Source of the DNA: Polyangiaceae bacterium
GTDB lineage: Bacteria > Myxococcota_A > Polyangia > Polyangiales > Polyangiaceae
Length of the DNA: 64,000 nt
Direction: 5' to 3'
NCBI GenBank assembly: GCA_015075635.1
Contig: JABTUA010000002.1
Span: 868,001 to 932,000, forward strand
Positions 51,719-57,712 of the stretch are shown in pieces. Below the pieces are notes generated by a model. That model ran no database searches, was not told where the DNA came from, and saw only the letters and a program-made list of their open reading frames with translations. The position numbers and the translations under genes are program-made. Numbering within the stretch: the first letter of the stretch is position 1; the number at the start of each line of letters is the position of its first letter.

Positions 51719-52261
51719 ATGCCGAACGACGAGCCCTGCCCGACGCAAACGAAAGACGACCCGGTTGAGAGCGTGATGACGGCGCCCGCGCTGTTCGTCG
51801 AGCGTCGCTCCAGCGTCTCCGCTGCCGAGGCGCTGCTCCGGTGTCACGCGGCCGACTGGCTGCTCGTGATGGACGACGACATGTTGCTGAGGGTGGTCAG
51901 CAGCGCGGAGCTGTCTGTCGCGGACGCGGAGGCCCCGCTCGACTCGCTGGGAACCGAGTCGTTCTTCTTCGCTTGCGCCCACGACGCTCTCGGCGGCGTG
52001 ATCGAGGGCATGCTCCAGCGCGGGCTCGCGTGCGTTCCGGTACTGGACGAGCAGGACTCGATCGCCGGGATCCTGACGCGCGCGGAGCTCCGGCGCGCGC
52101 GGCTGTTGCCCGGCGAGCGCGGCATGGACCTGTGCGGCTCGTGTGGGAGCGACGAGCACTTGGAACAGCCGTGCAGCGAGCGTGGCCGCGCGTTCTGTGT
52201 GGAGTGCCTGGCGCCGACCGGTTTCGACGCCGGGTACGCCACGCTGGGCGGCAGCGGGTGA
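51719..52261 (+). CDS. CBS-domain protein with zinc-finger-like tail
   Basis: 180 residues. Residues about 15-130 form a pair of CBS-like motifs (VMTAPALFVERRSSVSAAEALLR, LLVMDDDMLLRVVSSAEL, DALGGVIEGMLQRGLACVPVLDEQDSIAGILTRAEL), which usually bind adenine nucleotides. The C-terminus carries CGSCGSDEHLEQPC and CVEC, a Cys4 zinc-binding pattern. The stop overlaps the next kinase GTG as GTGA, so the two proteins are coupled and probably interact. Role: nucleotide-sensing regulator of the kinase, by inference. Confidence 0.8.
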   Translation: MPNDEPCPTQTKDDPVESVMTAPALFVERRSSVSAAEALLRCHAADWLLVMDDDMLLRVVSSAELSVADAEAPLDSLGTESFFFACAHDALGGVIEGMLQRGLACVPVLDEQDSIAGILTRAELRRARLLPGERGMDLCGSCGSDEHLEQPCSERGRAFCVECLAPTGFDAGYATLGGSG

Positions 52262-54360
52262 GCTACTCGAGCTCCAGCACGCCGTCGCATCCGGTCCCCC
52301 ACGAGCTCGAGGGCCCCGGCGCCGCCGTCGGCTCGGTCGTGGGCGGCTATACGCTGGAGGAGTACCTCGGTTGCGGCGCGATGGCGGACGTCTACGCCGG
52401 TTCGTCAGCGACTGGCCCGGTCGCGGTCAAACGTCTGCTTCCGATGCGCCGCGACAGCCATCACCTGGTGGACCTGTTCCTCCATGAGGCGCGAGTCCTG
52501 TTACAGATCTCCCATCCTAATGTGGCACGCTGCATCGACTTCGGGCTGTCCGACGGCGTCCCCTATCTGGTGACGTCCTACGTCGACGGTGTCTCTTGCG
52601 AGCTCCTTCTGGCCGGGCTCGCGGGTGAGCGCGGGGCTTTCCCGGTGGAGGTCGCTCTCGCCATCGTGCACCAGGTGTTGCTCGGCCTCTCCGCCGTGCA
52701 CGAGGCGCGAGACCCTGACGGCCGCCTGCTCGGGATCGTCCACCAGGACGTTTCGCCGGACAACGTCCTCATCGGCCGGAACGGCTCCGTCACCCTCATC
52801 GACTTCGGAGTCGCGCGAAGTCACAACCAAAGGCGCGCCGGCGGCGCCGAGGACCTCCGCGGCAAGCTCGGCTACATGTCACCGGAGCAGATCTTGGGCG
52901 AGCGGATCGACGCCCGCTCCGACGTATTCTCGGTCGGCGCCCTGCTCGGAGAGCTCCTGCTGGGCAAGCGGCTGTTCGGCGCCCCGACCACGCTGGGGAG
53001 CCTCGTCCGGGCGAGCCGCGCGGACACGGACGACCTCGGCGATCTCGATCCACGTGTCTCCGCGGACGTGCGTGAGGTGCTGGCCCGGGCCCTGGAGCGG
53101 CGACCGGCTCGACGCTTTCCGTCGGCGCGCGCCTTCGATCGCGCGGTGGGCGCCTTGCAGCAGGCGCGCGGCGCTCCGCTGGACGCCGCGCAGATGGCGG
53201 CCTGGCTCGCCGCCCGAGGCGTGGCGGCGACCGGCGCGCCGCGAAGCTCGCGGTCGCCGACACCAGCCGTCGGTAACCTCGTGGCTCGCATCGACGCTGC
53301 CGACCGAGTCCTGATCGACGGCCGCGGCGGCGAGCCTTCGGTCGCGGCCCCGCGCAGACCGACACCGAGCAGCGCGCCGACTGCGCGGCTGTTTCGAGTC
53401 CGAGAGCCTGGCTCCCACACGGAGCTGCCCTGCTCACTCGCCGACCTCGTCGAGCGCTTCGCCACCGGCCGCGTCTCGGACGCGACGCTGGCGGCCAGCG
53501 GCCGCTCTGCGCCGGTTGCGCTGGTGGATGTGCCGGAGTTGGTGCACCTGGCGCGGGCGTCCAAGGCCCGATTCGACGCGGAGCTGGGACGGGCACCGCG
53601 TTGGCGCTGTTCGCTGGAACGGGCGAGGCTGCCGGGAATGCTCTTCATGCTGGCGGGGACCCGGGCGACCGGCCTCTTGTCTGCGCGCGCCGGCGCTCGC
53701 CGCAAGCTGGTCTACTTCGACGCGGGCGTGCCGTGCTTCGTGGCCTCCAGCGAGCCGAGCGAGCTGATCGGCGCGCAGCTCCTGGCAGGCGGCTTCCTTT
53801 CCCGAGCGGCGCTCGACGACGCAGTGGCCGGAGCCACCGTGCAGCAGCGCCCGCTGGGAGAGACGCTGGCGGAAATGCGTGTGCTCTCCTCCAGCGAAAT
53901 GTTGCGCCAGCTGGTGACCCAGCTCGACACGCGCGTGCTCGAGCTCGGCAGCTGGCTCGACGCGAATCTCTCGTTCACGCCGGGGCTCCGGCCGGGCGCG
54001 GTGATACCGCAGTCGCTCGGCGTGCCGGGCGAGCTGGCGTGCCGCATGGTGCGGACCCGCTATTGCGACGAAGAAATTTCGGACTTCTTGCGCCCCCTGG
54101 CGGATGCATCGCTGACAGCCAAGTCGGAGCGCCCGCGGGTCGAACAGCCGCTGCCGTTGCTCGAGGTCGAGACCGGCGTGCTCTCTGCAGCAGCCAGCTG
54201 TCGCGACATCGGGACTCTCACGCTGCGCATGACCCGAGATCACGCGCTGCCACCGGAGGACACGCGACGCGCAGTGTTCATGGGGCTCTCCGCAGGTCTC
54301 CTCGAGTCACCGGCGTGGCTGTCGCCTTTTGCGACATCCGGTCTAGGCTCTCACCGGTGA
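52258..54360 (+). CDS. Ser/Thr kinase with HQD motif and C-terminal DUF4388 (PATAN) domain
   Basis: 700 residues from GTG 52258. Kinase about 30-300: glycine loop LGCGAMADVY, K58 (VAVKRL), VHQDVSPDN (the HRD Arg is Gln at 163), IDFGVA, YMSPEQ. The C-terminal half has a segment with SLADLVERFATGRV and DVPELVHLARASK, then a DUF4388-like PATAN domain (about 460-590; GMLFMLAGTRATGLLSARAGAR, KLVYFDAGVPCFVASSEPSELIG). No membrane helix, so cytoplasmic. The Arg to Gln change usually marks kinases without activation-loop phosphate control. It is coupled to the CBS/zinc protein. Confidence 0.88.
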   Translation: MSYSSSSTPSHPVPHELEGPGAAVGSVVGGYTLEEYLGCGAMADVYAGSSATGPVAVKRLLPMRRDSHHLVDLFLHEARVLLQISHPNVARCIDFGLSDGVPYLVTSYVDGVSCELLLAGLAGERGAFPVEVALAIVHQVLLGLSAVHEARDPDGRLLGIVHQDVSPDNVLIGRNGSVTLIDFGVARSHNQRRAGGAEDLRGKLGYMSPEQILGERIDARSDVFSVGALLGELLLGKRLFGAPTTLGSLVRASRADTDDLGDLDPRVSADVREVLARALERRPARRFPSARAFDRAVGALQQARGAPLDAAQMAAWLAARGVAATGAPRSSRSPTPAVGNLVARIDAADRVLIDGRGGEPSVAAPRRPTPSSAPTARLFRVREPGSHTELPCSLADLVERFATGRVSDATLAASGRSAPVALVDVPELVHLARASKARFDAELGRAPRWRCSLERARLPGMLFMLAGTRATGLLSARAGARRKLVYFDAGVPCFVASSEPSELIGAQLLAGGFLSRAALDDAVAGATVQQRPLGETLAEMRVLSSSEMLRQLVTQLDTRVLELGSWLDANLSFTPGLRPGAVIPQSLGVPGELACRMVRTRYCDEEISDFLRPLADASLTAKSERPRVEQPLPLLEVETGVLSAAASCRDIGTLTLRMTRDHALPPEDTRRAVFMGLSAGLLESPAWLSPFATSGLGSHR

Positions 54361-54479
54361 GATGCGGTGCGTTCCTTGCGCGGACCCTGCCGCGGGCGTA
54401 GGGTGGACGCCTCGTTGTGGTCGTCGAGCGTGGCGATGCGCGCGTAGTCCCCAAAAGCGCGCTCGGCGAGTGAGGAGCC

Positions 54480-56750
54480 ATCGAGCAGGTCATCCGGAAC
54501 CGGACCATCCGACGTGTCGCTTTCCTGGGAAACCACCTCCCGCGTCAGTGCGGCATAGCGACTTTCACGACCGACCTCTGCGACGCCGTTTGCTCCGAGC
54601 ATCCCGAGATCGACTCGCTGGTCCTGGCGATGACCGAGTCGGGCGCGCGCTACTCGTACCCGTCACGCGTCGCGCTCGACATCGCACAGGACGACCTGGC
54701 CTCGTATCGCAGCGCAGCGGCCTTCCTCGAGTCGAACGCAGTGGACGTCGTGTGCGTCCAGCACGAATACGGGATCTTCGGCGGCCGCGCTGGCAGTCAC
54801 GTTCTCGAGTTGCTGAGCGGGCTGAGCATGCCGATCGTGACGACGCTACACACGATCTTGGCGCGACCCGACGCGGCGCAACGCGAGGTGATGACCGAGT
54901 TGTGTCGAATCTCCGAGCGCTTGGTCGTGATGAGCACCCACGGGCAGAAGCTGCTCCGAGACGTCTACGGCATCCCGGAGCGCAAGATCGACTGGATCCC
55001 ACACGGCATTCCGGCCCTGCCGAACCCGCGCGACAGCAAGAGTCGGATCGGCGTCCACGGCAAGAAGGTCATCCTGACGTTCGGGCTGCTCTCTCCCGAC
55101 AAGGGCATCGAGCACGTCATCGACGCGATGCCCTCGATCCTGGAGCGCCACCCCGAGGCGAGGTACATCGTGCTCGGCGCGACCCACCCGCACGTCCGGC
55201 AACGGCACGGTGAGGCGTACCGCTCGATGTTGGCGGCGCGTGCGCGGGAGCTCGGCGTGGAGTCGTCGGTGGTCTTCCACGACGCCTTCGTGAGTCGGGC
55301 GCAGCTCACCGAGTACCTAGCGGCCGCCGATCTGTACGTGACCCCATACGAGAAGGCCGAACAGATCACCTCCGGCACGCTGGCGTACGCGGTCGGCTCC
55401 GGCAAGGCCGTGATCTCCACGCCCTATTGGTATGCGTGCGAGCTCTTGGCCGACGGTCGAGGCGTGTTGGTTCCCTGGCGGGATCCTCGGGCAATTGCCG
55501 TTGCCGCCGCCGACCTCTTGGGGGACGACGCGAAGCGAGCCGCGATGTCGGAGCGAGCAGCAGCTCTCGGGCCGCAAATGCGCTGGCCCGGCGTCGCCGG
55601 GCGCTACCTCGAGAGCTTCACCCAGGCACGTGCCGACCACGCCACCGAGCCGCGGGTCGCACGGCACGAACCCTCCGAGCTCCCAGCGGTCGAGCTGGAG
55701 CACCTCTCGGCTCTCAGCGACTCCACTGGCGTCCTGCAACACGCGCTCTACGACGTGCCGCGTCGTGAGGACGGCTACTGCCTGGACGACAACGCGCGTG
55801 CGCTGCTCGCGATGGTGCTGATGGACTCGCCCGGCGGCGAGCAAGCAAAGGTCGTGCGCCCGCTCCTGGCTCGCTACCTGGCGTTCGTCAGGCATGCCTT
55901 CGACGGTGACCGCAGGCGATTTCGCAACTTCATGTCGTACTCGCGCAGCTGGCTCGAAGCAGCCGGCTCGGAGGACAGCCAAGGCCGGGCGCTCTGGGCG
56001 CTCGGCGCGCTGGTCGGTCGAAGCCCAAACGCGGGTTGGCGCATCCTGGGGAGCCAGCTGTTCCACGCCGCGCTGCCGCCTCTGCTCGACTTCACCAGCC
56101 CGCGGGCTTGGGCCTTCGCGCTGCTCGGGATGGACGAATACCTCGCGGCGTTCGCCGGAGACGGCGAAGTGCAGGCGCTCCGGAACGACCTGGCTACTCG
56201 ACTGGTCGAGTTGTTCGTGCGCGCGCGTCGCCCGGACTGGGCTTGGTTCGAGGACTCCGTGACCTACTCGAACGCCAGCTTGTGCCAGGCGCTGATCGCC
56301 TCCGGCTCCCGCATGGGCGACGAGCGAGTCAAGCAGGTGGGGATGACCTCGCTCACCTGGCTGGTCGAGATCCAGACGGACGCACACGGCGACTTTGCGC
56401 CGGTCGGCTCCAATGGGTTCTTTCGGCGCGGCGCCGACAAGGCGCGCTTCGACCAGCAGCCCCTGGAAGCGGGCGCGACCATCTCCGCGTGTCTCGAGGC
56501 GGAGCGTGCCACGGGTGACCCCAGGTGGGCGGAGCGCGCGGTCACGGCGTTCGGCTGGTTTTTCGGCAAGAACCAGCTCGGCGCAGCCCTGATCGACGCG
56601 CAGACCGGCGCCTGCCGGGACGGCCTGCACGCCGACCGGCTCAACGAGAACCGTGGCGCGGAATCGACCCTGTCGTTCTTGCTCGCGCTGCTCGAAATGC
56701 GCGCCAGACACCGAAGCGGACCAGCCGCGCTGGTCGGAGGTCGAGCATGA
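54480..56750 (+). CDS. GT4-type glycosyltransferase with C-terminal (alpha/alpha) domain
   Basis: GT4-like glycosyltransferase (PHGI..., DKGIEHVIDAM, VTPYEKAEQITSGTLAYAVGSGKAVISTPYWY; UDP/GDP-sugar-binding) followed from about residue 360 by a helical domain (YDVPRREDGYCLDDNARALLAM) found with such enzymes. The conserved N-terminus VAFLGNHLPRQCGIATFTTDL lies in frame from 54504 onward, but the frame has no ATG, GTG or TTG between the TGA at 54471 and the ATG at 54630. I give the ATC at 54480 only to include that segment; the annotated start may be 54630 or the region contains a mutation. Followed by GH130 with ATGA overlap. Confidence 0.83.
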   Translation: MEQVIRNRTIRRVAFLGNHLPRQCGIATFTTDLCDAVCSEHPEIDSLVLAMTESGARYSYPSRVALDIAQDDLASYRSAAAFLESNAVDVVCVQHEYGIFGGRAGSHVLELLSGLSMPIVTTLHTILARPDAAQREVMTELCRISERLVVMSTHGQKLLRDVYGIPERKIDWIPHGIPALPNPRDSKSRIGVHGKKVILTFGLLSPDKGIEHVIDAMPSILERHPEARYIVLGATHPHVRQRHGEAYRSMLAARARELGVESSVVFHDAFVSRAQLTEYLAAADLYVTPYEKAEQITSGTLAYAVGSGKAVISTPYWYACELLADGRGVLVPWRDPRAIAVAAADLLGDDAKRAAMSERAAALGPQMRWPGVAGRYLESFTQARADHATEPRVARHEPSELPAVELEHLSALSDSTGVLQHALYDVPRREDGYCLDDNARALLAMVLMDSPGGEQAKVVRPLLARYLAFVRHAFDGDRRRFRNFMSYSRSWLEAAGSEDSQGRALWALGALVGRSPNAGWRILGSQLFHAALPPLLDFTSPRAWAFALLGMDEYLAAFAGDGEVQALRNDLATRLVELFVRARRPDWAWFEDSVTYSNASLCQALIASGSRMGDERVKQVGMTSLTWLVEIQTDAHGDFAPVGSNGFFRRGADKARFDQQPLEAGATISACLEAERATGDPRWAERAVTAFGWFFGKNQLGAALIDAQTGACRDGLHADRLNENRGAESTLSFLLALLEMRARHRSGPAALVGGRA

Positions 56751-57712
56751 ACCGGCGACGAGACTACGACGTGCTCTTCAGGCGGCATGCCAAGAACCCG
56801 ATCCTGACGGCGGCAGACTGGCCGTATCCGGCTCACACCGTGTTCAACCCCGGCGCGACCCTGCTTCGCGACGGCACCACGCTCCTGCTCTGTCGAGTGG
56901 AAGATCGGCGCGGACACTCCCACTTGTGCGCCGCACGCTCGCAGAACGGGGTCGACGGCTGGGTCATCGACGAGTCACCGACGCTGCTGCCGGATCCGGA
57001 GCGACATCCGGAGGAGATCTGGGGCATCGAAGATCCCCGCATTACCTGGGTACCTGAGCTGGAGAAGTACGCGATTGCGTACACGGCATTCAGTCGTGGC
57101 GGCCCAGGTGTGGCGCTGGCGTTGACCGAGGACTTTCGCGAATTCGAGCGCTGCGGCCTGGTCATGCAGCCCGACGACAAGGACGCCGCGCTCCTGCCCG
57201 AGCGCATCGACGGGAACTTCGCCCTCGTGCACCGGCCCATGACGGACCTGGGCGCACACATCTGGATCTCGTTTTCCCCCGACCTGCTCAACTGGGGCAA
57301 TCACCGGCTGATGCTCCCTTCGCGCAAGGGTGCGTGGTGGGACGCCAACAAGGTCGGCCTGTCCCCGCCACTGATAGCCACCGACCGCGGCTGGCTGATG
57401 CTCTATCACGGTGTGCGGCACACCGCGGCCGGCTGCCTGTACAGGCTCGGGCTCGCGCTCTTCGACCGGGCGCGCCCAGAGCAATGCCTGCTGCGCGGCG
57501 ACAGCTGGGTGTTCGGCCCCGAGGCTCCCTACGAACGCGAAGGCGACGTCGGCTACGTCGTGTTCCCGTGCGGGCACACGCTGGCGCCCGATGGCGACAC
57601 GCTGCGCCTCTACTACGGCGCCGCGGACAGCGGCGTGGCCCTCGCGAGCGGCAGCATTCGTGAGCTCTTGGCCTGGCTCGACGCCCACGGCGAGCCTTCG
57701 CTCTCGGCCTGA
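56747..57712 (+). CDS. GH130-like mannoside phosphorylase/hydrolase
   Basis: 321 residues, five-bladed propeller of GH130 type: NPGATLLRDGTTLLLCRVEDRRGHSHL, EEIWGIEDPRITW, RIDGNFALVHRP, WWDANKVGLSPPLI, YYGAADSGVALASGSIREL. GH130 enzymes phosphorolyse or hydrolyse beta-mannosides; the catalytic Asp in the IEDPRIT segment is present. The ATG overlaps the glycosyltransferase stop by 4 bp (ATGA). The pair may build and recycle a manno-oligosaccharide; substrate is inference. Confidence 0.85.
   Translation: MNRRRDYDVLFRRHAKNPILTAADWPYPAHTVFNPGATLLRDGTTLLLCRVEDRRGHSHLCAARSQNGVDGWVIDESPTLLPDPERHPEEIWGIEDPRITWVPELEKYAIAYTAFSRGGPGVALALTEDFREFERCGLVMQPDDKDAALLPERIDGNFALVHRPMTDLGAHIWISFSPDLLNWGNHRLMLPSRKGAWWDANKVGLSPPLIATDRGWLMLYHGVRHTAAGCLYRLGLALFDRARPEQCLLRGDSWVFGPEAPYEREGDVGYVVFPCGHTLAPDGDTLRLYYGAADSGVALASGSIRELLAWLDAHGEPSLSA

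Follow-up and report, generated by a model that had tools for sequence, protein, structure and literature searches.

An overlapping gene pair for a CBS-Cys4 protein and a non-RD Hanks-type kinase in a Polyangiaceae bacterium, with the CBS protein as a candidate kinase switch

Described relatives and layout of the gene pair

The kinase-DUF4388 proteins of the same bacterial family (host copy G000:C1:3071411, L024) share with the kinase studied here the layout of a kinase domain followed by a DUF4388/MshEN-like region, with 31–38% identity over most of the length, but they differ in that HRD and the T-loop Thr are kept and no CBS match adjoins them; the neighbours common to L024-type loci are presumably gatA and truB. 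Proteins of the Thermoplasma Ta0289 type consist of a CBS pair with a zinc ribbon, and we know of no kinase association for this type. The profile of our CBS-Cys4 family alignment (A1) matches the CBS part of Ta0289 (PDB 1pvm and 2qh1; E 5.6e-9 and 7.2e-9, respectively), although this match does not cover the Cys tail. The MshEN (GSPII) c-di-GMP domain, as in MshE (PDB 5htl) and PilF, has a tandem 24+5+24 motif and a helix bundle in common with our locus, whereas here the motif is degenerate and embedded in a PATAN domain. In the NmpRSTU system of Myxococcus xanthus, the CBS-protein gene MXAN_4236 stands in a hypoxia-induced operon with an NtrC-type regulator, and the portion of that report considered here describes no Hanks kinase alongside (PMC11841059). 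Six genomes of Myxococcus, Corallococcus, Pyxidicoccus, Archangium, and Hyalangium yielded CBS matches, none of which reached the Cys4 part, and on this basis MXAN_4236 was rejected as a CBS-Cys4 protein. Finally, non-RD kinases of archaea and plants have no Arg before the catalytic Asp, and some of them work without activation-loop phosphorylation, according to the portion of the source considered (PMC5682000); by comparison, the loss described here sits within a group that is otherwise HRD in every member examined.

The locus lies in a window of 64,000 nucleotides (the whole stretch of DNA that was analysed) from a Polyangiaceae bacterium with a 9.47 Mb genome and at least 151 kinase matches (150 of 258 candidates scored). 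Two open reading frames joined by a GTGA overlap had been proposed in an initial annotation and were recovered here to the nucleotide, with the following features:

51719..52261, + strand: gene for a CBS-CBS-Cys4 protein (180 aa; ATG at 51719, TGA at 52261; Pfam and family alignment)
52133..52207, + strand: Cys4 tail CxxC-x17-CxxC, C139 to C163, a putative zinc site (family alignment)
52258..52261, + strand: GTGA shared by the CBS stop and the kinase start (sequence)
52258..54360, + strand: gene for a non-RD Hanks-type protein kinase with C-terminal DUF4388 (700 aa; GTG at 52258, TGA at 54360)
52741..52749, + strand: HQD replacing HRD, residues 162–164 (sequence and relatives' loops)
52801..52872, + strand: DFG and activation loop VARSHNQRRAGGAEDLRGKLG, with the family T-loop Thr replaced by Gly at residue 195 (Thr in 15/15 relatives, L023–L037)
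53611..53991, + strand: DUF4388 (PATAN-like) domain, residues 452–578 (Pfam 28.1 bits, cut-off 25)
53764..53922, + strand: degenerate MshEN-like tandem 24+5+24 residue helix motif within DUF4388, residues 503–555 (NCBIfam, profiles, and model)

GC contents at codon positions 1/2/3 were 0.70/0.51/0.90 in the CBS frame and 0.74/0.54/0.84 in the kinase frame, resembling those of two neighbouring genes, and the stop/start overlap suggests that translation of the CBS protein and the kinase is coupled. The best match outside the host genome reached 35% identity for the CBS protein, and the best match of the kinase 36–38%. Among the best 80 of 565 matches, the nearest named kinase domains were mostly myxobacterial, the others being labelled bacterium, Deltaproteobacteria, or Proteobacteria, with two from Comamonas. 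The pair is a new combination of known parts, and such a CBS protein/kinase pair was absent from the titles and abstract starts in a partial literature search. A candidate sigma-54 site upstream of 51719 agreed at 6 of 10 positions at best, which is not meaningful, and was discarded.

Loss of the RD arginine and the T-loop threonine

The kinase domain (PF00069, E 3.4e-34, residues 31–288) is followed by a linker and then by DUF4388 (residues 452–578). It retains the Lys, Glu, catalytic Asp, Asn, DFG, and SPE of Hanks-type Ser/Thr kinases and is, as judged by sequence, catalytically complete. The initial annotation had described a cytoplasmic kinase in which the HRD Arg is Gln, and this description stands: HQD occupies residues 162–164, and the sequence gives no sign of a membrane helix, the highest hydropathy averaged over 19 residues (1.74) falling inside the kinase domain.

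Long relatives of this kinase were found at E ≤ 1e-80 in 17 of 59 genomes (host included), with 18 matches besides the window kinase, of which 15 (L023–L037, one in the host genome) were compared and those in G028, G035, and G036 were left out. All 15 of these full-length relatives carry HRD together with a Thr at position 11 after DFG, mostly as RRTxxGxLKGK. In the window kinase, Gln stands for the HRD Arg and Gly for the T-loop Thr, and the activation loop holds a single Ser (Ser188) at loop position 4; having neither the Arg before the catalytic Asp nor the phosphorylatable T-loop residue of RD kinases, it falls outside that class. Two more kinase-DUF4388 proteins of the host, as well as the host cluster kinase, are HRD. 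The host kinase-DUF4388 genes at L244 (G000:C3:796000-802000) and L243 (G000:C3:873500-879500), both HRD, lie far from the three CBS-Cys4 genes found in this genome.

The proposal that the HRD change may release the kinase from T-loop control is supported by the loss of the RD Arg and by that of the activation-loop Thr, which had been missed before; on sequence grounds, this joint loss is the strongest new point in favour of the idea. Because both sides of the T-loop switch appear dismantled, kinase activity is most likely set by accessory parts.

HQD is rare, with 52 sites vs 7584 HRD pattern matches across 59 genomes (not every match being a kinase) and 2 vs 209 pattern matches in the host genome; genomes of the group carry up to about 250 HRD-type kinase sites each. 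As such it is not new, because a short-loop kinase group with HQD.KPxN (L168–L215, e.g., L169, L171, and L215) accounts for many of the other HQD sites; this group occurs in several families of the order and has a 15-residue activation loop resembling VAAxxxxxVAGTPT. Mid-loops without Ser/Thr were seen in 9 of 38 HQD loops (window excluded) vs 0 of 93 HRD loops (Fisher p 7e-6, uncorrected for kinship). All nine were 15-residue loops of the short-loop group, and the idea that HQD generally goes together with a loss of Ser/Thr from the loop was rejected on that account; within the GK class the counts were 0/9 for HQD vs 0/65 for HRD, which lends the window kinase no support. The HQD kinases L078 and L112 retain loop Ser/Thr.

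The CBS-Cys4 protein and its neighbourhoods

Pfam reported one CBS repeat in the CBS protein (1e-7), and a second became apparent when the protein was aligned with its family and with CBS pairs in the PDB, the two making up a CBS (Bateman) module. C139, C142, C160, and C163 are invariant in all nine rows of A1 (window included), a wider set shows the C..C...C..C pattern in 45 of its 47 rows, and the protein ends in ATLGGSG. The combination of a CBS pair with CxxC...CxxC places the protein in the CBS-Cys4 family, and its earlier description as a CBS protein with a Cys4 tail is thus borne out by Pfam, the family alignment, and the invariant cysteines. Matches to the CBS-Cys4 profile at E ≤ 1e-15 occur in at least 129 of 317 genomes of the class (with up to 11 candidates scored per genome), many of the matches covering the CBS part only.

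The usual CBS ribose motif is GxxTxxD, which is a pointer to adenine-nucleotide binding and no proof of it. In both repeats of the window protein the Asp of this motif is Glu (RVVSSAEL and GILTRAEL), and CBS1 is without the HH and CxC residues present in most relatives, so that the epithet "nucleotide-sensing" given to the protein at the outset does not find support. AMP and ATP are probably not what the protein senses, or it binds them only weakly, and AMP/ATP sensing would be a guess. Its predicted structure (pLDDT 42.6) was set aside.

In the CBS tree, the window protein shares a subclade with L018, L019, L020, and L021 (support 98/100) and sits on a long branch (1.9); a first tree had paired the window row with a long-branch row, and the final tree was built without six rows (L134_6070, L149, L150, L151, L153, and L157). 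The window kinase, by contrast, groups with the L024 type (support 86 at a 16-row fork and 98 at an 18-row fork) and not with L018, L019, and L021, its branch being long (1.7) and its place in the tree unsure. The two trees tell different histories, so the pairing looks like a new combination; co-duplication of the pair from the conserved cluster described below was rejected, as the CBS protein groups with the cluster CBS proteins and the kinase with the L024 type.

Neighbourhoods were compared for 46 CBS-Cys4 sources (window, L018–L022, and L118–L157, with L150 lacking the Cys4 pattern), and near-full CBS matches in G040:C8, G081, G216, G224, and G227 stand outside this set. Within the stretch compared, a kinase was present in 11 of the 46 loci and absent from 35, some stretches stopping at contig ends. 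It adjoins the CBS-Cys4 gene in seven (window, L132, L137, L139, L142, L144, and L154), five of which are of one family. In this family (f15), a kinase-PEGA gene lies upstream of the CBS-Cys4 gene, and on its strand, in five of seven loci (L137, L139, L142, L144, and L154, from five genomes); in L144 the two genes are separated by 0.7 kb and by a regulator match on the opposite strand. The remaining loci L153 and L155 have no kinase; the f15 kinases are HRD with PEGA, not DUF4388, and the gene order is opposite to that of the window. The kinase of L132 is convergent to the CBS-Cys4 gene. In L018, L019, and L021 the kinase and the CBS-Cys4 gene are 3.0–3.4 kb apart, and in L125 the distance is about 5.3 kb. 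CBS-Cys4 genes thus cluster repeatedly with Hanks kinases, in pairings that are homologous, not orthologous.

The loci L018, L019, and L021 represent one conserved cluster, in which a kinase-DUF4388 gene, two sigma-54 activators, a CBS-Cys4 gene, and a receiver-histidine kinase are joined in L018 and L021 by a HAMP/GAF hybrid histidine kinase and in L018 and L019 by a lone receiver:

L018, 3055-14497: conserved cluster
L019, 3172-10524: conserved cluster
L021, 969-13534: conserved cluster

Pfam was scanned for the L018 genes and, in L021, for the kinase and hybrid kinase only; the DUF4388 assignment comes from Pfam for L018 and L021, and from a regional profile for L019. Among the four other members of the window CBS subclade, all three with context lie near a kinase-DUF4388 gene, and L020 stops at a contig end. 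The L021 cluster kinase is HCD with no Ser/Thr in its activation loop, but two of the three cluster kinases (L018 and L019) keep HRD and loop Ser/Thr, and a nearby CBS-Cys4 gene is therefore not a rule for loss of the switch. The host genome encodes five kinase-DUF4388 proteins (of 17 DUF4388 matches) and at least three CBS-Cys4 genes (11 of 217 candidates scored), and two of the five kinase-DUF4388 genes lie less than 5 kb from a CBS-Cys4 gene (0.016 expected; P about 1.2e-4, assuming random placement and computed after the result was known).

Synteny, which had been suggested as a check on the pair, gave a divided answer: an orthologous CBS-kinase pair was not found in the relatives searched, the pair itself occurs nowhere else in the loci compared, and no CBS match adjoins the 15 kinase relatives L023–L037, but homologous CBS-Cys4/kinase associations do exist. 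The CBS gene and the kinase gene are both paralogs that diverge fast.

Candidate routes of kinase control

We propose that the two genes form a soluble signalling module in which the T-loop switch would have been lost on both sides (HRD Arg to Gln, phosphate-carrying Thr to Gly). Control would be exerted in trans by the CBS-Cys4 protein, whose translation appears coupled to that of the kinase, and in cis by the PATAN domain and the MshEN-like helix bundle it contains. We put at about one half the probability that the T-loop switch has been dismantled and that accessory modules have most likely taken over control, the coupled CBS-Cys4 protein being the leading candidate. We infer, in line with the initial annotation, that the CBS protein may be the kinase switch; it would contact the kinase and either activate or inhibit it, and zinc at the Cys4 tail and any ligand would likewise be putative elements of the module.

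A rival or second switch would be the PATAN/MshEN-like domain, which the kinase itself carries. The presence of a C-terminal PATAN-like domain, as annotated before, is confirmed by a DUF4388 score above the curated cut-off, and PATAN was reportedly described, in the title of work by Makarova in 2006, with an alpha-helical insertion. MshEN was taken to comprise two 24-residue (R/K/L)LGxx.. motifs with a 5-residue spacer and key residues kept, following the tandem-motif consensus in the portions of PMC5013675 and PMC11731258 considered. In the window the spacing is exact, and 10/11 and 8/11 positions are kept in motifs I and II, respectively, with Ala for Gln at position 24 of motif I and with Pro at 1, Ala at 7, and Arg for Gly at 10 in motif II. 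The NCBIfam model NF053729 (MshE-related c-di-GMP motif) matches residues 504–555 of the window kinase at 20.2 bits, below its cut-off of 38; over 10 proteins, only the kinase L048 (39.0) and the non-kinase L064 (55.2) exceed this cut-off, the eight further kinases ranging from no match in L021 to 39.0 in L048 (37.3 in L024). A profile of the region (window, L044, L048, L064, and L066) matched PilF (3.2e-21) and the N-domain of MshE (5htl; 1.7e-10). As the strong motif carrier L064 contributes to this profile, a search with the window segment alone was added, in which 5htl came first of four matches (E 0.0069). Structure prediction of the PATAN region, another of the checks suggested, succeeded in part: the helix bundle of the model can be superposed on 5htl to 1.0 Å over 54 columns (Foldseek probability 1.00, E 0.82, rank 6), but the model is of modest confidence (mean pLDDT 52.4, with blocks of 67–83 over the helix region), and Foldseek gave no match at E ≤ 0.001 and ranked five low-probability matches ahead of the short MshE match. 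Ser/Thr kinases that carry MshEN have already been published (PMC5013675), and the publications found to mention both PATAN and MshEN do not equate the two, in the portions considered.

These results bear on an alternative in which the kinase would either be active constitutively or answer only to its own PATAN/MshEN-like domain (through a cyclic-di-GMP-type or protein-docking input), with the CBS-Cys4 protein a co-expressed substrate or bystander. The profile matches, the superposition, the NF053729 match, and the published MshEN kinases agree with it, whereas the score below cut-off, the failure of all but two of the proteins to pass, and the replaced key residues in both motifs argue the other way, and the recurrent CBS-Cys4 neighbourhood would be left unexplained; we regard this alternative as rather unlikely. 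Because motif II is damaged, c-di-GMP binding by the window kinase is doubtful.

A decaying or weakly active duplicate, with both genes being fast-diverging paralogs under relaxed constraint, would account for the long branches of both genes, the failure to find orthologs in the relatives searched, and the lost CBS1 motif residues, but it is improbable given that both frames are open with codon-position GC like that of neighbouring genes and that the catalytic residues, the four Cys, and the C-terminal TLGGS tail of the CBS protein are retained.

Directly downstream of the kinase, on the same strand, are glycosyltransferase and GH130 phosphorylase-type genes (54630-57712); the conserved N-terminus of the glycosyltransferase (54474-56750) is matched in 10 of 10 loci within the open frame, which contains no ATG, GTG, or TTG before 54630, pointing to a rare start codon or a sequence error. 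That the CBS-kinase pair acts on these two genes as one operon, to which the shared strand and the 113 bases from kinase stop to glycosyltransferase open frame would lend themselves, is very improbable and was rejected as a functional unit, the CBS-Cys4 and kinase pair being absent from all 10 loci compared (of 14 other glycosyltransferase matches), where L160 has a multi-CBS protein without Cys4 and L161, L162, and L165 have HRD kinases only 32–37% identical in the kinase domain.

Control by the CBS-Cys4 partner thus stays our preferred reading, and we tentatively extend it to the class, an extension that is possible though less than probable: a set of CBS-Cys4 proteins may act as trans regulators of Hanks kinases, and in the present case the CBS partner would have taken the place of T-loop phosphorylation, so that the kinase could lose the RD Arg and the Thr, with the PATAN/MshEN-like domain as a second input. 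To our knowledge, inputs are known for few Hanks kinases of this group. A kinase without an internal switch beside a small, partly kinase-associated partner would make it possible to test how such a kinase gains a new switch, and, to judge from the MshEN-like motif, members of the wider kinase-DUF4388 group may be responsive to cyclic di-GMP.
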